In this document: positions 2,086 through 17,685 of the stretch, piece by piece
How the letters are laid out: each line of letters opens with the position of its first letter
Position numbering within the stretch: position 1 is the stretch's first letter
NCBI GenBank assembly: GCA_017620915.1
Contig: JAFZSK010000065.1
Span: 1 to 33,504, forward strand
Reading direction: 5' to 3'
Length of the DNA stretch: 33,504 bases
Source: Clostridia bacterium
GTDB lineage: Bacteria; Bacillota; Clostridia; UBA1212; UBA1255
The notes under the pieces: generated by a model
What the model was told of the DNA's origin: nothing
Seen by the model: only the letters and a program-made list of their open reading frames with translations
Database searches by the model: none
Made by a program: the position numbers and the translations under genes

Positions 2086-3132
2086 TCATGGCGCGACCGT
2101 TATAATGCAGCGCTTGACAACGTATTCGTATTCGCCGGTCAAACTGTTGAACGCGCAGTTCTTTTTCACGTAAAAGGCCGCGAAACAGGGCTGCGTTTCG
2201 CCGCCGGCGCCTTTGCGGAAGTCCATGAATACCGCGGCATTCTCCGCAAATTCCGCACCGCTGATGCCATCCGCAATCAATTCTAAGGTCATTTGACCAT
2301 TCGCAGCGTCATCGTTGACCGCAAACACGCTGACAGAAAGGATCTCCCCGCCGGAGATCGGCGCTATTGTGAACTCCTTTCCGACACTGACGGCCAGTAA
2401 CTGCGCCGGATCTTCTTTATATTTTTTGGCCCAGCTGAGCATAGAACCGGTAGCCGACGAACCGAAATTGATCGACCAGTCGACCAGGACCATTTTGTCG
2501 GTTTCATAATAATAGAATTTGTCCGGATATTCCGCGCCGCTCAAAGAAAAGTCTTGATAGATCGTCAAGAACAGATTATTGTCGCAGATGTACGACACGC
2601 TGTTAGGATCGTCCCATGGGATTTGCGTCGGGACCGGCGTGGGCGTGGGCTCCGGTGTCGGCTCCGCTTCCGTAGGCGTAGGCGTGGGCGGCACGTCCGT
2701 AGGTGTCGGCGTGGGCGCAAGTGTGGGCGTAGGCGTTAATGTCGGAGGCACTTCCGTGGGCGTAGGCGCTTCCGTAGGATCCGGCGTCGGCGTCAGCGTA
2801 GGCGTTGACGTCAATGTCGGCGGCACTTCAGTTGGCGCGGGGACTTCCGTAGGTCCCAGCGTCGGTGTTGGCGCGTCATCACCCGGCACGCTGCCGCTTT
2901 GCAGCGGCTTCTTGTTTCCGCGGTTTTTCAGCGCGATCCCGACGATCACCGTTGACAATATCGCCACCACGAATACTAATACGGCCGTTGCCAGCGCGGG
3001 CCGGAATTTAAAACTGCCGCGTTTGCGGGTATTGCCCGTTGTCACGGGACGCGTTTTATCGAATTCCGCGCTTTCGGCCACCATATCCGCCGGCATCTGT
3101 TTTATAATTTTGGCGAGTTCTATGTCGTTCAT
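2086..3132 (-). CDS. Single-pass membrane partner of ECF sigma factor (putative anti-sigma/sensor)
   Basis: This 348-residue protein has a short cytoplasmic segment (1-45, MNDIELAKIIKQMPADMVAES), a membrane helix (about 46-68, ALATAVLVFVVAILSTVIVG), a long Pro/Thr/Glu linker (about 87-172, repeats like PTEVPPTLTPTPT), and a roughly 175-residue ectodomain with no family I recognise. Its ATG overlaps the sigma-factor stop as ATGA, and GAGGGAG precedes it. That coupling, and the layout of a short cytoplasmic helix, one membrane span and an outside domain, fit an anti-sigma factor or signal-sensing regulator that holds the sigma factor at the membrane. This role is inferred; no zinc-binding anti-sigma motif is visible. 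The linker resembles those of cell-wall-spanning proteins in fibre-degrading Clostridia. The antisense reading of the linker gives only Val/Gly repeats. Confidence 0.7.
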   Translation of the reverse strand: MNDIELAKIIKQMPADMVAESAEFDKTRPVTTGNTRKRGSFKFRPALATAVLVFVVAILSTVIVGIALKNRGNKKPLQSGSVPGDDAPTPTLGPTEVPAPTEVPPTLTSTPTLTPTPDPTEAPTPTEVPPTLTPTPTLAPTPTPTDVPPTPTPTEAEPTPEPTPTPVPTQIPWDDPNSVSYICDNNLFLTIYQDFSLSGAEYPDKFYYYETDKMVLVDWSINFGSSATGSMLSWAKKYKEDPAQLLAVSVGKEFTIAPISGGEILSVSVFAVNDDAANGQMTLELIADGISGAEFAENAAVFMDFRKGAGGETQPCFAAFYVKKNCAFNSLTGEYEYVVKRCIITVAP

Positions 3133-3749
3133 ATTTCTACTCCCTCAGCTTCGAGAAACGCCCGAAGCCCCTCGCGGGTCCGGTTCAGGTTCGACAGCAC
3201 CGTGCCGCGCGGGATGTTCATGATCCGGGCAATGTCGTCGACCGAACGTTCGTAATAATAGCGGGCAAAGAAGATCTTGCGCTTTTTGGGCTTCAGCGTG
3301 CGCAGGTAGTCGGCAACGAGCCCCATTGTCCTCGCGCCGCTCGGGTCGCCGCCGTCGGCAATGGTTGCCCCCGCGCTGCCGCTCCCCACGCCCAGCGGAT
3401 CGGTCCAGGGATCGGTGACCTGTTGTCCGCCGCGGTCAACATCCTCCAGCGACACCGTCCCGCCGGCCGGATTGCTCCGCTTCGTGTTCCGCTTCCGCAG
3501 CATGTCCAGCGCCGTGTTGCGCGTGACCTCTCCCGCGTAGTTCTTCAGGTCGTCCGGCGCCGCGGGCGGGATGCTGTTCCAAACCTTCAGCCAGACGTCG
3601 TTCAGGCACTCTTCGACGTCGGACGCGTTTTTCAGGATATTGAGGGCAACAGTGCGGCAATAACTGCCGTACTTCCGCTGCATCTCCGCTATGGCCTGCT
3701 CGTCGCGCCGGTCAAACAGCGCAATGATGTCAATATCCCTGACCTGCAT
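3129..3749 (-). CDS. ECF-type RNA polymerase sigma factor
   Basis: The 206-residue protein has sigma region 2 at about 5-90 (IIALFDRRDEQAIAEM, VEECLNDVWLKVWNSIP, core RNA polymerase and -10 contacts). It has region 4 at about 146-200 (LKPKKRKIFFARYYYERSV, then the helix-turn-helix DDIARIMNIPRGTVLSNLNR, -35 recognition). Between them lies an unusually long Gly/Asp/Ser-rich linker (about 100-145). GGGGGAGG lies six bases before ATG at 3749. The gene overlaps its membrane partner by 4 bp, so the two are co-produced. It is paralogous to the sigma factor at 6129-6686. The target genes cannot be read from the window; autoregulation is common in this class. Confidence 0.9.
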   Translation of the reverse strand: MQVRDIDIIALFDRRDEQAIAEMQRKYGSYCRTVALNILKNASDVEECLNDVWLKVWNSIPPAAPDDLKNYAGEVTRNTALDMLRKRNTKRSNPAGGTVSLEDVDRGGQQVTDPWTDPLGVGSGSAGATIADGGDPSGARTMGLVADYLRTLKPKKRKIFFARYYYERSVDDIARIMNIPRGTVLSNLNRTREGLRAFLEAEGVEI

Positions 3750-4371: not shown

Positions 4372-6132
4372 TTATTGTCGCATTGACGGAAACTGGTCAG
4401 AGACCTTGAGCGGGATCGAGTCAAGATCGATGAATACCTGGTACGTTTCCAGCAGCGTCATCTGATCGTAGTTCAGTTCCTCAACTACATCGAGATCAAA
4501 ACGTATAGTCCTGTATTTTGAGAAATCCGCCTGATCCGCGAGCTCTTTCTGGTCAAAACGCAGTTGAAAATCCAGATCGATATTAAAGATATATACGCCG
4601 GTGGTCCTCACGCCCGGAGAAGTGTCGGCAAAGAAGAAATCCTCGTCATAGATGATGTATCCCGGAAGGACTCTGACGCCGTTGACGTCAACATCCCTTG
4701 CAGCGTATGAAAAAACGCTGTCCGTTTTATTTTCCCAGATCAGCACCAGGCTGGTCGTATCCACCTCGGGATGACCGGTCTGATTAAGCCACTGTTCATA
4801 CTTGTTTTTCCACAGGCCGATGAGCCAGACGCGGAAATACTCGTTGTCTGCCAGCAATACGTCGCTTTCCCTCGGTATGTAGCGCAGAGATTCCGCCTTC
4901 TCCTCTCCCATCGGATAAGCAGTCACGCTGTACAACCAGTCTGTATTATAATCTGACGTGTCATAGATCCTGAATTTAAGATCAAGCACTGTGGGATCAG
5001 CCATACCATACTCTGACAGAAGTATAATGTTCGGATGACTGTTGGATATGACATACTTGATCTGCTGGCGTTCTCCGGGACCGATGTATGTATGCGAACC
5101 GCTCGGCAGCCAGCCAATAAAAACACCGTTCACCGCCATCCAGCTCAGGTCAATATCAGTCAGTTTATCTGTACGGTTTTCATATTCGAACTGAAGCTGA
5201 TATTGCCCGCTTTCGGTGAGCGTTACACGTTTAAGCACCAGATACGCGACATCGTCGTCAATAAGCACCTGATCCTTGACGGTCGCCTCTTTCATGCGCG
5301 TGTACGGGCTGTTTACTTCACCGGTCAATTGATTCATATATGTGAATTCGCCCCGCGCCGGGGGCTGCTCCTCGGAACGCTCAAATATCAGTTTGAACGA
5401 GGACGGGTATACAAGGGTAAGCGTATTGTCATCGAGGCTGTATTTTAATTCCGTCCGCGATGAACGATATTCCGTTTTCTCACCGATGAACAGCCTGTCA
5501 CCGTCCCACCACAAGTCTGTTTCTGTGCCGAAATCGTTATAAAAACCGGTGCCGTCAGCATTCAGTACGACGAAACAATATTTTTTTTCGGCCGCTTTCG
5601 TTAGAGCGTACAGTTCATTGTAAAACCTATGTCCGTCCGATGCGTATCCGGTGCCAAATTTAAAATACCCGGTCACAGGGGCGGTAAACGGCGTTGGCGC
5701 TTCCGTCGGTTCCGCGGTGGGCTTTTCGGTGGGCGCCGCCGTAGGAGTCGGCGTGGCTGTGGAAGGCGGCAAAGTTGGCTCCGGCGTGGCTGTGACAGGC
5801 GGCAACGTTGACTCCGGCGTGGCTGTGACAACGACCGTTAATGAAGGCTCAGACGTGGTAACTGTATCGCGTTTGGTTTTCAGATATTTCGCAGTGAGCG
5901 CCGCGACGATTCCCAGCACGGCGCAGCACATAATAATGCCGGCGGTAATAAATCCCCGGGACAATTTGCGCCGTGATCCGGTACCTCGGAGCGAGGGATT
6001 CCGGGAACCCGCGTTGCCCGCGGTTGTGCTCAACGCGCCGTTTGTGCGCGCCTCGTACCGCTTTGCCTCCGCTTCCTCAATAAGGTCACCGTCAATGCCT
6101 TGCATCGCTTTCTCAAACAACTCCGTATTCAC
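4372..6132 (-). CDS. Single-pass membrane partner of second ECF sigma factor, lipocalin-like ectodomain
   Basis: From GTG at 6132 the protein has 586 residues. GTGA overlaps the sigma stop and AGAGGGG precedes it; the longer frame from 6180 would overlap the sigma gene by 52 bp and is rejected. The cytoplasmic segment begins VNTELFEKAMQGIDGDLIEEAE, a short helix seen in clostridial sigma partners. A membrane helix (about 61-81) and a Thr/Pro linker (about 102-150) follow. Residues about 151-260 (TGYFKFGTGY, FVVLNADGTGFY, DDNTLTLVYPSSFKLIFER) resemble lipocalin-like beta-barrel domains of clostridial surface proteins. The rest looks like beta-sandwich or Ig-like sequence. Sensor or anti-sigma function is inferred from the coupling to the sigma gene; no ligand can be deduced. 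Confidence 0.7.
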   Translation of the reverse strand: MNTELFEKAMQGIDGDLIEEAEAKRYEARTNGALSTTAGNAGSRNPSLRGTGSRRKLSRGFITAGIIMCCAVLGIVAALTAKYLKTKRDTVTTSEPSLTVVVTATPESTLPPVTATPEPTLPPSTATPTPTAAPTEKPTAEPTEAPTPFTAPVTGYFKFGTGYASDGHRFYNELYALTKAAEKKYCFVVLNADGTGFYNDFGTETDLWWDGDRLFIGEKTEYRSSRTELKYSLDDNTLTLVYPSSFKLIFERSEEQPPARGEFTYMNQLTGEVNSPYTRMKEATVKDQVLIDDDVAYLVLKRVTLTESGQYQLQFEYENRTDKLTDIDLSWMAVNGVFIGWLPSGSHTYIGPGERQQIKYVISNSHPNIILLSEYGMADPTVLDLKFRIYDTSDYNTDWLYSVTAYPMGEEKAESLRYIPRESDVLLADNEYFRVWLIGLWKNKYEQWLNQTGHPEVDTTSLVLIWENKTDSVFSYAARDVDVNGVRVLPGYIIYDEDFFFADTSPGVRTTGVYIFNIDLDFQLRFDQKELADQADFSKYRTIRFDLDVVEELNYDQMTLLETYQVFIDLDSIPLKVSDQFPSMRQ

Positions 6133-6686
6133 AGCAGTCCCCTCTCTTCCAGCGCGGCGCGCAGCTTTTCTCTGAGACATTTCAGCGTACGGTACACTTT
6201 AAGTTCCGGTTCCCCCGCGGCGCCTGCGATCTCCCGCACGCTGTCATAATGGTAGTAGCGGGACATGAAAATAAACCGTTCCCGCTCCGGCAGGCTTCGG
6301 ATGAAGGCGCTGAGGAAAGCAGACAATTCTTTCGCGTCCGTTTCCTCTTCCACCGTTTTGCCGCCGTCGATACAACCGGCAAGCTCTTCCAGACTGGTCG
6401 TATACTCCGATGGTATCCGCTTCAGACGGTGCTTTTGTTTGTACCGGTCGAGCGCGGCGTTTCGTACCGCGGCGGCAATGTATGCCCTCATGTTTCGCGG
6501 CTGTTCCGGCGGGACGCGGTTCCATACAGAAAACAGGGCGTCGTTAACGCACTCTTCGCTCTCCCCCTCGTCTCCGAGAATGTTGAGGGCAATTGTGCGC
6601 AGATACGCCCCGTACTGTCCCGCGACGGCGTTGATCGCCGCCTCGTCCCGTTTATTAAACAACTCTAAAAGATCGCTGTCTGTCAT
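6129..6686 (-). CDS. ECF-type RNA polymerase sigma factor
   Basis: From ATG at 6686 the product is 185 residues. Region 2 starts at MTDSDLLELFNKRDEAAINAV and includes SEECVNDALFSVWNRVPPEQP. Region 4 follows (LPERERFIFMSRYYHYDSVREIAGAAG, then VYRTLKCLREKLRAAL). The start was chosen by alignment with the sigma factor at 3129-3749. A GTG at 6725 has a better GGAG spacing and would add 13 residues, so the start is uncertain. The region 4 helix-turn-helix (EIAGAAGEPELKVYRTLK) is intact. The gene overlaps its membrane partner as GTGA. It sits 123 bp downstream of the DUF4349 gene, and no convincing -35 element is seen in between. Confidence 0.88.
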   Translation of the reverse strand: MTDSDLLELFNKRDEAAINAVAGQYGAYLRTIALNILGDEGESEECVNDALFSVWNRVPPEQPRNMRAYIAAAVRNAALDRYKQKHRLKRIPSEYTTSLEELAGCIDGGKTVEEETDAKELSAFLSAFIRSLPERERFIFMSRYYHYDSVREIAGAAGEPELKVYRTLKCLREKLRAALEERGLL

Positions 6687-6809
6687 TATCCGCTGTTGCC
6701 CGCTGTTTTTCCGCTCCGGAAGCACATTGTCTCCGCAAGCCCTTTGCTTTTATAGACGACGGATTTTTCCGTTTTTATCATTATGTCCGCTTTATTTCTT
6801 TGCTGTGTT

Positions 6810-11596: not shown

Positions 11597-14086
11597 TCAA
11601 TCGTCGTCAATATAAATAGGAAAATCGTCCTCCGGCATATCTGTTGAAAGGAACGTTTCAACGGGAGCGGCGTCGGTCTTGAATCCGTATGCGTACAGCC
11701 ATTGACCGTCAACGGCGCCGAAGTTTTTTGCCTTGACCTGTTCGGTAATATAGTTGATCATGATTTCGTCAAAGCTCTCTTGATCTGCAGCCATGGACAG
11801 ATCGGAACCGGCCTGGAACATAAACAGCGCATCATGTTCGCTCCGGTATACGGTATACATAGCGCCGTATGTCGTTCCGTACAGTCCGGTATATTCCGTC
11901 TGTTCCGGATAAAGCGCCCACATCGGTCTATAGTATTCCTCATTCCTCACGGCGGTCCCGGTGATGCGCACCTGGATATTCACAGAGCGGTCCCGGGAAC
12001 TGCTCACCGGTACCGGAAGACGGATGGCTATGACCAGATAGAGCGAAAAGCGCCCGTCTTCTGATACGGTGAACATCTGCGGGTCGGCCGTAATAATATT
12101 GTGCGCGTTCTCCCAGATATCCCTGCTTAGGATCTGGCGTACATCGTTTGTGACCGATTTGGAAAACTTGCCGAAATACAGGCCCGGTTCCGCCCATTCC
12201 GGGCGCGGAGAAATTGCCCACGCGCCGTCGTTAAAGGTTGCCGGCAACGCGGCAATGACTCTGCCGGCGGCATCAAAATATGTGCATTGCCCTTTACCGG
12301 TCGCCGGGTCATAACTCCAGCACCGGTCAGGAACGAGCGCGCCGCGGTCATTGCCGGAGCACCGGTATACGTTTTCGATAACGGTTCCGTCCTCCGTCCG
12401 CTCAAAGTTCCGGAAAACGGAAAGGCCGCTGAAGGAACTGCCGTTGTAGAAAATGCTGTTGTCTGCGGTATCCAATGCCTCGCCGTACACTTTTTTGCCG
12501 CCCTTATAATTCTCCCGCAGCAAAAAAACTCCGCTTGCATTGAATTTCCTGATCGTGGCACCGCCGTCATAGGCGGCGTATCTGCCGGACTCATCGTGAT
12601 CCGCGTAACTTGCCGAAGCGATCCGCGATTCCTCCCGCGGCGTACCGTCCCCGGCGTTTCCCCATATGAGCTCGATCTCCGTCAGGACGCCGTCGCTGAA
12701 GCCGCATACAACAGATGATCCGGAGGCGGGAGGGATATTGAAATAATAATTTTCATCATTTTGCCCCTCGTTCCGGATCTCCGGCTCCGGCTTCGGCTGC
12801 ACCGTATCCTTTGAATCCAAACTGTAACTATATACGTAAAATTCCGATATTTCGCCATTCCGGTCGTATTTATAATTCAGTTCATAAATATCCCCGTACT
12901 CTTCGTATTCCAGCTGCGTCAGAATGAAGTTTCTTTTGTCTGTGCCAAACTTTAACGTGGCACCGGTGATATGCCCCGTCGCCGCGGACGAGTTTGTGCC
13001 GAAGAAATCCTGCTTGGTCAGATAATTTGAAATCGTTTTGTTAACTGCGTCGATGTTTCCGATATGATCTTTGTAATACTCCAGATGCGGATTCATGGCC
13101 ATCAGTTCCGGGATCGACTGGAAAGGAACCGCCTTCAAGCTCTCGGCAATACAAATCAGCTCATCCACTCCCCCGCCGGGACCGGCTGTAACGAGGTACG
13201 CGGTACCGCGGTAATCTACAGGAACGTTCCCGAATATCGGTCCACCGGCGTAAGCCAGCGGCAGCGTCATCGTGGTTCTGAACTGAAACGCGGTCTCGCC
13301 GTTCATACTATCGAGCTCGTAATTGTCCAGCGTGAGGCTCTCTATGCAGAGGCCGCCGTTGACATAATTTACCATGCTGCTGACTTCGTTGACAATGCAA
13401 CGAACCTCGTCTTCCGGCTCAAACATCAGACCGCTCGAATACTGCAAATTCATAAGTTTTTCGACAGTTTCGGGCATCGTCACGCGCGGCTGGAGCACGG
13501 CAAGGCCGCCTTCGAACGGCCCGGGCGTAACGTCAACGATATTGCCGCTTCCCCCATCGCCGGTCATTGCCGGCGGGGCCGCCTTTTCCGGTCGCGTGAC
13601 GGCAATAGCGATCAGCGCGGCAATAACTACACATGCGTTCAGGCACGCGGTCAATATGATATACTTATTTAAGTTCAGGCGTTTTCGGGGTTCTGCGGCC
13701 GGTTCTGTTGCCGGTTCTGCCGCGGCGGTTTCGGGCTCCGGCGCGGTCAACGCGGCCGGCGTTTCGATTGCGGTCCGTGCAGCAGCCGCCGGCTTGGCGT
13801 TGTCCGGTGCGGCCGAAGGGACAACAAGCCCGGCGCGTTCCATTGCCCGCCGGCGCACGTTTTTGGATAGATACTCGCCCAGCTCTCCGTCATGCTCCGC
13901 CGCACGCGGGCCTGAGTTCCACAGACTGATCAGCGCTTCGTAAAAACACTCCCGCGCCGCACGGTCATCGCCGGTAATTTTCCGGGCTTCGTCAAGGCAG
14001 TTTTCCCCGTACTTTTCCGACAGTTGACCGAGCGCGGCCTGATCGCGCTGTTCTATTAATTCAATGATCCGGGTATCGTCCATCAT
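11597..14086 (-). CDS. Sigma region-2 domain fused to membrane helix and large ectodomain
   Basis: From ATG at 14086 the protein has 829 residues; the start is uncertain (GTG at 14104 or ATG at 14083 are alternatives, and the ribosome binding site is weak). Residues 2-86 align with region 2 of the two sigma factors in this window: DTRIIELIEQRDQAALGQLSEKYGENC, ECFYEALISLWNSGP, YLSKNVRRRAMER. No region 4 follows. An Ala/Pro/Glu linker (about 95-138) leads to a membrane helix (about 142-164, YIILTACLNACVVIAALIAIAVT) and about 660 residues outside. The ectodomain contains toxin-repeat-like stretches (YDRNGEISEFYVYS, YFDAAGRVIA) resembling RHS/YD-like or MORN-like repeats, but no named domain. The same regulator-plus-ectodomain theme is encoded as separate coupled genes at 2086-3749 and 4372-6686. 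The function as a membrane-tethered sigma-like regulator is inferred. Confidence 0.75.
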   Translation of the reverse strand: MMDDTRIIELIEQRDQAALGQLSEKYGENCLDEARKITGDDRAARECFYEALISLWNSGPRAAEHDGELGEYLSKNVRRRAMERAGLVVPSAAPDNAKPAAAARTAIETPAALTAPEPETAAAEPATEPAAEPRKRLNLNKYIILTACLNACVVIAALIAIAVTRPEKAAPPAMTGDGGSGNIVDVTPGPFEGGLAVLQPRVTMPETVEKLMNLQYSSGLMFEPEDEVRCIVNEVSSMVNYVNGGLCIESLTLDNYELDSMNGETAFQFRTTMTLPLAYAGGPIFGNVPVDYRGTAYLVTAGPGGGVDELICIAESLKAVPFQSIPELMAMNPHLEYYKDHIGNIDAVNKTISNYLTKQDFFGTNSSAATGHITGATLKFGTDKRNFILTQLEYEEYGDIYELNYKYDRNGEISEFYVYSYSLDSKDTVQPKPEPEIRNEGQNDENYYFNIPPASGSSVVCGFSDGVLTEIELIWGNAGDGTPREESRIASASYADHDESGRYAAYDGGATIRKFNASGVFLLRENYKGGKKVYGEALDTADNSIFYNGSSFSGLSVFRNFERTEDGTVIENVYRCSGNDRGALVPDRCWSYDPATGKGQCTYFDAAGRVIAALPATFNDGAWAISPRPEWAEPGLYFGKFSKSVTNDVRQILSRDIWENAHNIITADPQMFTVSEDGRFSLYLVIAIRLPVPVSSSRDRSVNIQVRITGTAVRNEEYYRPMWALYPEQTEYTGLYGTTYGAMYTVYRSEHDALFMFQAGSDLSMAADQESFDEIMINYITEQVKAKNFGAVDGQWLYAYGFKTDAAPVETFLSTDMPEDDFPIYIDDD

Positions 14087-14112
14087 CCGGTATTCCGTCT
14101 GCACATAACAGC

Positions 14113-14159
14113 GGGGCTGTTTGTCCGACTTGTAAAGAACAAAGTCTTAAAACAGCCCC
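14113..14159 (-). terminator. Long stem-loop after F5/8C gene, terminator-like
   Basis: GGGGCTGTTT (14113-14122) pairs with AAACAGCCCC (14150-14159), and an inner GACTT/AAGTC stem continues the fold. It lies 33 bp past the stop of the F5/8C gene and just before the start of the sigma-fusion gene. No U-tract follows on the minus strand, so it could attenuate rather than terminate. Confidence 0.4.
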
Positions 14160-14192
14160 TTCGATCTAATTCAGTTTACTAAAACGTCCGGC

Positions 14193-15917
14193 TCAGAAAG
14201 TTCTTTTCTTCGCGAAGACAACTGCGGCGCCCATTGCCAGCACAGCGATGACTGCGAACATAGCCACAGAGAAGTCGCCGGTCTGCGCGTTCTCATCCGC
14301 AGGGCCAATGTAGGTGAAGCTGGTGTTCGGCGTGGTGCCGGCGCCGTTGGCGCTGACGTTTTCGTCAATCTTCACGATGGTGCCGTCGGCAAGTTTCGCA
14401 ACGGCAACGATCTTGTTGGTGCCTTTAAGGTTGGAAACGTCGATGGTCATATCGAATCTGGTGGCGTACTGACCGCCGTTGGCAGGATCGGTGACCGCAG
14501 CTTCGGGAGCAACTTTATAGTCGCCGAAATAATTCTTGCCGTTGATCCGGTAGCCCAGCTCGGCGATCTCGGTCTCGAAACCGATCCAGCCGCGCAGGCG
14601 GATGGTCTGGACGCTGCCGTCGGAACCGTCGACTTTACGGCCTACGCCGTCAAGTTTGTCGGAAGCCGCGCCGTCGGCCTGGCCGAAGTTCATAACGTCG
14701 TTGACGTAGATCGTGTCGAAGGACGCGCCGTGGAGCTGGTAGTTCGCCGGCTCAGTCTCGGGCTGAGTCTCCGCGGGAGCAGTCACAGCGTAAGAACCGT
14801 ATACTTCGATGCCGCCGAGGCCTGTCCAGTACTGGCCGCCCAGGGTATCGGTTCCTTTGTTGATAACAAGTCTTACGTAGCGTGCGTCTTTTTCAGAGAA
14901 TTCAATAGTGCGGGTGGTGCCTTTAACACCGATGGCACTCTCGTTCTGTCCGGTATAAACAGAAGTCCAGTTGGAGCCGTCTTCAGAAATGAGTACTTCA
15001 TACGTGTTGGGGAAGTACCAGCCGTTGTCGTCCCTGCTGGCGTCATCGGTCCAGGGCATCGGGACAAGATTGATCTTATTGATTTTGTACTTTCCGTGAA
15101 GGTCCACATCCAGCCGCATCGGAGCATCTTCCGTCAGAGCGACCGCGATCCATCCGGTCATATTGTAAGGTCCGAACGCGTAAGGAACGCTGGGGCCTGT
15201 AACGGCGTGGTCGTCCCACTGCGCGCTGTTGCCGAGCACCCAGGTCGTAACGGTCGGGTCAACGGTCTCAGTGGAGGTCTTGTACGCAGCAATATTGCCA
15301 GAGGTGTAGGTGTCGTAAACTTCGATTTCGCCGAGGCCGGCGTACTGTACGAAACCGCCGTCATCAGTGTCGGCAACGATGTCATTGCCGTATACGACCG
15401 TGAATTTAACGTATCTGGCGTTGACCTTGTCGAACTCATATTCAAGCGCGTGAGTCAGGTAGTCGGATCTTCCGGCAACGCTAATGACCTTGGTCCAGTT
15501 CGAACCGTCCGCCGAAACGTAAACGTCGTAAGTGTTGGGGAATTTCATTCCCAGGAAATGATACTCCGTGTAGAGCTTGATGCGGCAGACATCATAAGCC
15601 GCCTGAAGGTCAATGACCACACTGGCATTCATCGGATCTTCGCCGACTTTTACGACGTACCAGCCGTAACGGGTATCGACCGGGTCGGCTCCGTTATAAG
15701 TGGTGGTGTCGAATCTGCTTCCGTCGGTAAGGCAGTCTTTGCCCCAGTACGGATCGCCCATAGAAGTGGTACCTTCTTCCAGCTCTTCGGTGACCGGCTT
15801 GTTAAGCGCCAGGTTCGTGGATTCAGCCGCAACCTTCACAGGAGAAGCGATGTTAAGTATCCCGACAAGGGAAAATACCATAACGGCGGCTATCAGTAAA
15901 ACGAGTACTTTCTTCAT
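14193..15917 (-). CDS. Surface protein with two F5/8 type C (CBM32-like) domains and C-terminal anchor
   Basis: From ATG at 15917 (AAAGGGG upstream) the product has 574 residues: signal peptide (about 1-31), then two discoidin-like domains. The first (about 35-205) has NLALNKPVTEE, KFPNTYDVYVSADGSNWTKV, ARYVKFTVVYGND and GLGEIEVYDTYTS. The second (about 210-385) has FPNTYEVLISEDGSNWTSVYT, ARYVRLVINKGTD and GLGGIEVYGSY. A third beta-rich domain (about 400-540) follows. The end, NAQTGDFSVAMFAVIAVLAMGAAVVFAKKRTF, looks like a sortase signal variant (TGD, hydrophobic span, KKR), with NAQTGD in place of NPQTGD. Two carbohydrate-binding modules suggest attachment to polysaccharide; the ligand is not readable. 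The adjacent GH51 and CE2 genes fit a role in plant fibre use. Confidence 0.85.
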   Translation of the reverse strand: MKKVLVLLIAAVMVFSLVGILNIASPVKVAAESTNLALNKPVTEELEEGTTSMGDPYWGKDCLTDGSRFDTTTYNGADPVDTRYGWYVVKVGEDPMNASVVIDLQAAYDVCRIKLYTEYHFLGMKFPNTYDVYVSADGSNWTKVISVAGRSDYLTHALEYEFDKVNARYVKFTVVYGNDIVADTDDGGFVQYAGLGEIEVYDTYTSGNIAAYKTSTETVDPTVTTWVLGNSAQWDDHAVTGPSVPYAFGPYNMTGWIAVALTEDAPMRLDVDLHGKYKINKINLVPMPWTDDASRDDNGWYFPNTYEVLISEDGSNWTSVYTGQNESAIGVKGTTRTIEFSEKDARYVRLVINKGTDTLGGQYWTGLGGIEVYGSYAVTAPAETQPETEPANYQLHGASFDTIYVNDVMNFGQADGAASDKLDGVGRKVDGSDGSVQTIRLRGWIGFETEIAELGYRINGKNYFGDYKVAPEAAVTDPANGGQYATRFDMTIDVSNLKGTNKIVAVAKLADGTIVKIDENVSANGAGTTPNTSFTYIGPADENAQTGDFSVAMFAVIAVLAMGAAVVFAKKRTF

Positions 15918-15957
15918 AATTTGCCCCTTTCTCAATAGAAAAAGTAGATTTGACGTT

Positions 15958-15986
15958 ATTATATCACGCAATTTTATGCAAATCAA
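15958..15986 (-). promoter_or_regulatory. Promoter of the F5/8C surface protein gene
   Basis: TTGATT (15981-15986), 17 bp, TATAAT (15958-15963) on the minus strand, with TGA before the -10 box. It gives the gene its own transcript between the upstream beta-helix lipoprotein and itself. Confidence 0.7.
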
Positions 15987-17138: not shown

Positions 17139-17411
17139 TTAAAACAGGTCAGCGTGACTGCCCGTTCGGAACAAAAAGAGTTCTAATTCTTCCTCATTTG
17201 TACGATAAACCAGAAGCCAGTCCGGTTCAATGTGACATTCTCTGAAACCGCGGTATTCTCCGGTAAGCCCGTGATCACGGTATTTTGCTTCAAGCAACTC
17301 CTGACGCACCAGAACATTTACCACATATTGGAGCTTTTGTATTATCAACCCGCGCTTTGCGGCCAATTTCAGGTCTTTTCTGAACTGATTTGACGGAACG
17401 ATCTTAAGCAT
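17139..17411 (-). CDS. YafQ-type toxin (RelE superfamily mRNA interferase)
   Basis: This 90-residue protein ends HIEPDWLLVYRTNEEELELFLFRTGSHADLF. It conserves the residues known to matter in E. coli YafQ: His in DHGL, the HIEPDW set (His, Asp, Trp), and the C-terminal GSHADLF His and Phe. The product should cleave translated mRNA on the ribosome and be neutralised by the antitoxin encoded just upstream, with which it overlaps by 8 bp. The catalytic histidines are intact, so the toxin looks active. Confidence 0.88.
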   Translation of the reverse strand: MLKIVPSNQFRKDLKLAAKRGLIIQKLQYVVNVLVRQELLEAKYRDHGLTGEYRGFRECHIEPDWLLVYRTNEEELELFLFRTGSHADLF

Positions 17412-17685
17412 CTTCTAACACCTCGGACAATAACTCATCAAAAGAATCATACCTTTTATAAGCGCCGGGGTTATTTCTCATATCACTGTATTCCGCCAAA
17501 GCAGCGCGCGTTTCAGCGTTCGGCGTGTAGCGCCGGACTTCAAAGGGGATGCCGTTGCGGTTAACTGAAGTTTTTAAAAACATCGTTATTGCCGCAGACA
17601 TGTTTAGACCAAGATCGTCAAACAGCGCTTCCGCCGAACGCTTTAGTTCGGTATCAACGCGTACGTTTATATTTGTTGTAGCCAT
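17404..17685 (-). CDS. DinJ/RelB-family antitoxin
   Basis: The 93-residue protein begins with a ribbon-helix-helix DNA-binding domain (TTNINVRVDTELKRSAEALFDDLGLNMSAAITMFLK). It ends in an acidic C-terminal tail (YDSFDELLSEVLEDA), which in this family wraps the toxin. It overlaps the toxin gene by 8 bp. The consensus promoter lies immediately upstream; antitoxins of this type autoregulate by binding their own promoter. GGAGGG lies a few bases before the ATG. No clear operator palindrome was picked out. Confidence 0.9.
   Translation of the reverse strand: MATTNINVRVDTELKRSAEALFDDLGLNMSAAITMFLKTSVNRNGIPFEVRRYTPNAETRAALAEYSDMRNNPGAYKRYDSFDELLSEVLEDA

Follow-up and report, generated by a model that had tools for sequence, protein, structure and literature searches.

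A divergent ECF sigma region-2 domain joined to a membrane helix and a large ectodomain in a genus of Clostridia

The window analysed here (the whole 33,504-nucleotide stretch of contig JAFZSK010000065.1 from a Clostridia bacterium) contains, at positions 11597..14086 on the minus strand, a single open frame of 829 codons running from 14086 to 11597, whose product has the order sigma2 domain, linker, membrane helix and ectodomain, as judged from the open frame and from comparison with homologues. Residues 1-86 (13829..14086, minus strand) form an ECF sigma region-2 domain of five helices, assigned by sequence comparison, profile and structure model; within it, helix 2.2 (residues 41-58; 13913..13966, minus strand) carries ARECFYEALISLWN, with Tyr49 where working sigma factors have Asn or Gln. 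An Ala/Pro/Glu-rich, low-complexity linker follows (residues 87-139; 13670..13828, minus strand; AlphaFold2 pLDDT about 30-40), and then a membrane helix (residues 140-163; 13598..13669, minus strand), which lies at the one strong membrane segment of the protein (Kyte-Doolittle peak 2.74 at 143-161). The flank on the N-terminal side of this segment is positively charged, indicating an N-in/C-out topology. The remaining residues, 164-829 (11600..13597, minus strand), make up an ectodomain consisting mainly of beta-hairpins and assigned to no known family; because Foldseek matches to the PDB were weak and mixed (beta-repeat and propeller folds, query TM-scores <=0.12), we leave its family unnamed. 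The linker, membrane helix and large outside domain described by the first-pass annotation are thus all present.

No Pfam match to region 4 was found anywhere in the 829 residues, and no hidden region 4 was found in the other two frames of the linker, both of which are rich in stops, in agreement with the earlier statement that region 4 is missing. Pfam likewise gave no match in the linker, with no anti-sigma or zinc-finger domain ahead of the membrane helix, and no receiver domain in the protein. Upstream of the ATG at 14086 we saw no clear ribosome site; an inverted repeat, GGGGCTGTTT...AAACAGCCCC, lies at window positions 14109-14160, in the interval that separates the fusion gene from the gene at 14193-15986. 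An ECF-type promoter (AAC-N15-19-CGT) common to the upstream regions of the fusions was looked for and not found. Elsewhere in the window, two small overlapping genes (17139-17411 and 17404-17685, minus strand) resemble a YafQ/DinJ-type toxin-antitoxin pair, a likeness that we judged by eye.

Two full-length ECF sigma genes in the same window (6129..6725 and 3129..3749, both on the minus strand) serve as the comparison. Each is overlapped by the gene of a membrane partner that we regard as a putative anti-sigma factor (4372..6132 and 2086..3132, respectively, both minus strand), so that the neighbouring loci do consist of two coupled genes, as had been noted. This arrangement is the normal one for full ECF genes of the genome, which are overlapped, usually by 4 bases (ATGA), by a gene whose product spans the membrane once, bears an I(S/D)(D/E)DLV-type motif at its N terminus and has a large ectodomain, and such membrane anti-sigma-like proteins accompany nearly every ECF in the genus. 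The fusion gene has no overlapping partner of the ECF/anti-sigma type; both the N-terminal motif and an overlap with an upstream ECF gene are absent from it.

The identity of the N-terminal domain was evaluated at the level of sequence, profile and fold. Residues 2-86 are 28-41% identical to the corresponding part of eleven full ECF sigmas that this genome encodes, including 35% (6129-6725) and 34% (3129-3749) for the two ECFs nearby, confirming the alignment from which the first-pass annotation started. Against a profile of full-length ECFs (built from 38 ECFs of the order only, mostly from the same genus), the segment scores 67.7 bits (E about 1e-22 when three sequences were searched). The Pfam Sigma70_r2 model, which had been suggested as a check, stays under its cut-off on the isolated 86 residues (E=0.11, 12.7 bits versus a cut-off of 24) and gives no match on the whole 829-residue protein, and the best NCBIfam sigma model reaches 7.9e-5 on the isolated segment, far under the cut-offs; we therefore regard this region-2 domain, on its profile scores, as divergent from the general library models, with the match holding at the level of the genus. 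The lack of a significant profile match, which the first-pass annotation had set as a condition that would refute it, is answered by this genus-level profile. Structure prediction, a second suggested check, agrees with the assignment: AlphaFold2 places five helices in the segment (pLDDT about 71-98 per 10-residue block), and 48 of the 50 PDB matches in the VIA-align list belong to sigma factors or to the sigma-like domain of PhyR (Z >10 for SigK, SigW, E. coli sigmaE and AlgU; Z 4.6-5.8 for PhyR chains). Foldseek on the sigma2 model alone returned weak E-values (none better than 0.066), and the assignment accordingly draws on the within-genus homology and the VIA-align list. Sigma2 homology together with one N-in/C-out membrane segment makes this a membrane-tethered, sigma-like protein, as first described.

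Searches of the genus recovered the same layout in seven genes from five genomes, including the window gene; the six others are in four genomes (one each in G001, G003 and G004, and three in G002). The genomes are fragmented and largely metagenome-assembled, and the named records behind the loci are metagenome-derived genomes of clostridia, of which several come from rumen (Mageeibacillus sp. UBA1255; water buffalo, yak). Every member has a single strong membrane segment, flanked by positive charge on its N-terminal side; the linkers span 31 to 95 residues while the sigma2 domain and membrane helix are kept. One member (P0012) carries a different, shorter ectodomain on a similar sigma2-linker-membrane part, and another (P0010) is broken off where its contig ends and contains a stretch rich in glycine ahead of helix 2.2. 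In G002, contigs C58 (L027:1-114) and C97 (L026:1-2721) hold what are probably the two halves of a second fusion gene, which seems to begin just after the first and would give G002 a tandem pair; the part on C97 has a glycine-rich stretch before helix 2.2, with the helix itself kept. The family is specific to the genus: the ectodomain profile found nothing outside it among 16 genomes of the family, and the sigma2 profile found no other long fusions among these 16 genomes, among 31 genomes of the order or, at E up to 1e-12, among 391 genomes of the class. The fusion was not found in G005 (70% complete) or G006 (88% complete), a search for a phage origin yielded nothing close in 50,697 phage records, and the open-access literature that we searched contained no sigma2-only membrane protein.

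Two other kinds of sigma-related gene were seen in these genomes. In one protein family an XRE helix-turn-helix stands in place of sigma region 2 and is followed by an ECF-type region 4; each of the seven genomes of the genus has members, as do two other genera of the order (g11 and g12), and they include L076:278-784, L078:395-856, L079:331-786, L080:226-684 and L082:133-588 in G000 and L072:3769-4257 in G002, the last followed by an overlapping membrane protein gene in the manner of an ECF/anti-sigma pair. The other kind is a reduced sigma gene in G005 (L121:1169-1489, plus strand, contig C138) that consists of the first residues, a linker and region 4; it has a GTG start after a GGAGG site and is overlapped by an anti-sigma-like membrane gene. 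This gene is the mirror image of the fusion, and could be the product of an assembly deletion.

The sigma2 part of the fusions has a single origin. The six usable fusion sigma2 domains form one clade (support 97/93), whose sister is a full-length ECF of G002 (L065; support 99/92). Between the G001 and G004 orthologues, dN/dS is 0.015 over residues 1-60, compared with 0.40 in the linker and 0.52 in the ectodomain, and 1 of these 60 residues has changed, compared with 176 of 683 (Fisher p about 2e-6). No portion of the protein is more constrained than the sigma part, which is under strong purifying selection. The C-terminal outer part of the fusion was also compared with P0013, the partner of the sister ECF, and this first gave an hhalign E-value of 0.0018 (probability 15%), which became 0.2 once a second homologue was added. 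An origin in which an ECF was joined directly to its own anti-sigma partner is a possibility that the first comparison suggested and the second did not support. This weak resemblance concerns the sequences at L109:2481-4037 and L121:1486-3291.

What is conserved is a face of the domain on which residues typical of working sigma factors have been exchanged. At position 49, 36 of the 38 full ECFs have Asn and one has Gln, whereas all seven fusions have Phe or Tyr; an acidic residue at position 43 occurs in 38/38 ECFs and in 0/7 fusions, and position 45, Glu in ECFs, is mostly Arg in the fusions; Asp/Glu50 and Trp56 are kept in all seven. Because the fusions all belong to one clade, these counts represent few independent events, and the replacement of conserved sigma residues is fixed across them. 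The consensus of regions 2.3 and 2.4, including the -10 recognition segment, is largely lost. With region 4 absent and the -10 segment diverged, the fusion by itself is, to judge from its residues, unlikely to be a working sigma factor. Alignment on the E. coli rpoE sequence equates position 49 with RpoE Gln51; the equivalent residue of sigma70 is Gln406, a main core-binding residue. RpoE Gln51 is also among the contacts made with anti-sigma helices in four crystal structures, and the contact positions of anti-sigma helix 4 in these four ECF/anti-sigma complexes (PMC7406223, Table 2) map to 19, 20, 23, 24, 28, 32, 45, 49, 52 and 56 in our numbering. The fusions have a common set of residues at these positions: L19; R20, E23, R/K24 and R45 in most members; F/Y49 in all; L/M/F52; and W56 in all. 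This pattern suggests a binding face that is kept but re-tuned, less acidic and more aromatic, in a manner common to the members.

As a reading that we find plausible, if somewhat short of probable, we propose that the fusions are genus-specific single-pass receptors whose altered sigma2 domain is a protein-binding module competing with ECF sigmas for a sigma2-binding partner. The cytosolic part would be an ECF region-2 domain that has lost region 4 and has altered core- and promoter-contact residues. A signal outside the cell, acting via the ectodomain, would change the availability or release of this module, which would then compete with full-length ECF sigmas for the partner. A site-2 protease gene in the genome makes proteolytic release a possibility. 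The likeliest partner would be the short helix that the membrane anti-sigma-like proteins have in the cytosol, with the I(S/D)(D/E)DLV-type motif as a candidate generic target and the fusion as a tethered anti-anti-sigma; the second candidate would be the beta' clamp of polymerase. We rank anti-sigma helices above polymerase because the fusion and the putative anti-sigmas are expected to share one topology and one membrane. The first-pass annotation had offered titration of a sigma factor, for which we found no support; region 2 is the part of a sigma that binds polymerase and anti-sigma helices, so titration of an anti-sigma is the more natural idea. The more specific proposal, that these proteins are a new one-component transmembrane receptor with a sigma-mimic output, which arose once in a rumen genus and frees ECF sigmas from membrane anti-sigmas, is a possibility that we hold only tentatively; its origin would lie in an ECF sigma2 domain whose region 4 was lost and to which a membrane helix and an ectodomain were added.

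The alternative that survives best, although we think it rather unlikely, is that the sigma2 domain, membrane-bound or cleaved, binds to the beta' clamp of core polymerase, thereby blocking or modulating other sigmas. Regions 2.1 and 2.2 also bind the polymerase clamp helices, and it is this clamp-binding face that is conserved (PMC7406223). Since anti-sigmas and the beta' clamp use this one face, its conservation fits either partner. A partner as conserved as polymerase would also explain how one interface persists beneath seven divergent ectodomains, and the site-2 protease gene would fit the cleaved form. The residues themselves are divided: the retention of Asp/Glu50 and Trp56 in 7/7 fusions is in keeping with the original suggestion that the protein binds core polymerase, but that suggestion is weakened by the loss of Asn/Gln49 and of the acidic residue at 43 and by the change of Glu45 to Arg, all within a segment that is near-invariant in working ECFs.

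We consider it unlikely that the sigma2 fold was recruited outside transcription altogether, for example for oligomerisation or as a receptor scaffold. The new hydrophobic residues that the fusions have in common on helix 2.2 and the absence of a DNA-binding or region-4 part would suit such a role, whereas the part that is kept is the sigma interaction face, and this in a genus with many ECF/anti-sigma pairs. Still less probable is a split sigma, in which the sigma2 receptor would combine with a separate region-4 protein to give an active factor, as SigO does with RsoA. The genome does hold several region-4-only proteins with an XRE domain, the gene of one such protein adjoins a fusion in G002, and within family f1 the fusions and the XRE-region-4 proteins are both confined to this genus; however, proteins of the latter type are common in genera of the order that have no fusions, none is encoded beside the window gene, and region 2.3, the SigO-binding segment of RsoA according to a title cited in PMC8103513, has diverged in the fusions. 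A sequencing error, frameshift (which the first-pass annotation had raised against its own reading) or decaying pseudogene would fit the divergence of the segment from the Pfam region-2 model, but is excluded for all practical purposes by the same layout in four other, independent genomes, by the dN/dS of 0.015 and by the lack of region-4 sequence in the other frames.

As a rule, sigma and anti-sigma are two partner proteins, or else a complete sigma is fused to its inhibitor; here half a sigma seems to have been fixed as the tail of a receptor, under clear selection and with the residues of a working sigma replaced. If the fusion is a tethered mimic, it extends the anti-anti-sigma principle to a membrane form and offers a possible path for cross-talk between the numerous ECF systems of each genome. 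The replacements themselves (Asn49 to Phe/Tyr, loss of the acid at 43, Glu45 to Arg) provide a handle on how a sigma2 face discriminates between polymerase and anti-sigma.

Compared with known systems, the fusion is closest in sequence to the ECF (group IV) sigma70 factors of its own genus, with which it has the region-2 fold in common (28-41% identity) and among which its nearest relative, a full ECF, is found; it differs from them in having no region 4, in its altered core-binding and -10 residues and in being joined to a membrane helix and ectodomain. C-terminal anti-sigma-like membrane extensions are known from several membrane-tethered ECFs (IutY/ECF243, ECF48, SCO4117 of ECF52, and ECF53), which are described as becoming active sigma factors upon proteolysis and have anti-sigma-like parts such as a zinc-finger domain (PMC8999054). 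Like the fusion, they are single polypeptides in which a sigma sequence precedes a membrane helix and an outer part. Tethered ECFs of this type have region 4, whereas the fusion has neither region 4 nor an anti-sigma-like part. RsoA, a region 2 without region 4 that is an active sigma together with SigO (PMC8103513), resembles the fusion in having region 2 on a polypeptide that lacks region 4. In the fusion, by contrast, sigma2 forms the tail of a receptor and its region 2.3 is diverged; RsoA is, to our knowledge, not a membrane protein. The sigma-like domain of PhyR is an anti-anti-sigma, a sigma mimic (PMC8103513). It parallels the fusion as a sigma-like domain, with sigma activity lacking in PhyR and unlikely in the fusion, and with protein binding known for PhyR and proposed for the fusion. 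PhyR consists of a sigma2-sigma4-like part and a phosphoreceiver, in contrast to the fusion, which is membrane-bound and has no receiver and no sigma4. The membrane anti-sigma-like partners of the genus (for example, window 4372-6132, L109 and L110) have the same single-pass N-in/C-out form and large ectodomain, and differ in having the short I(S/D)(D/E)DLV-type motif and the overlap with an ECF gene, neither of which the fusion has. The fusion mixes features of tethered ECFs, RsoA and PhyR while departing from each in a defining property, and we therefore place it in none of these groups and describe it as a sigma-factor domain serving as the cytosolic end of a membrane receptor.
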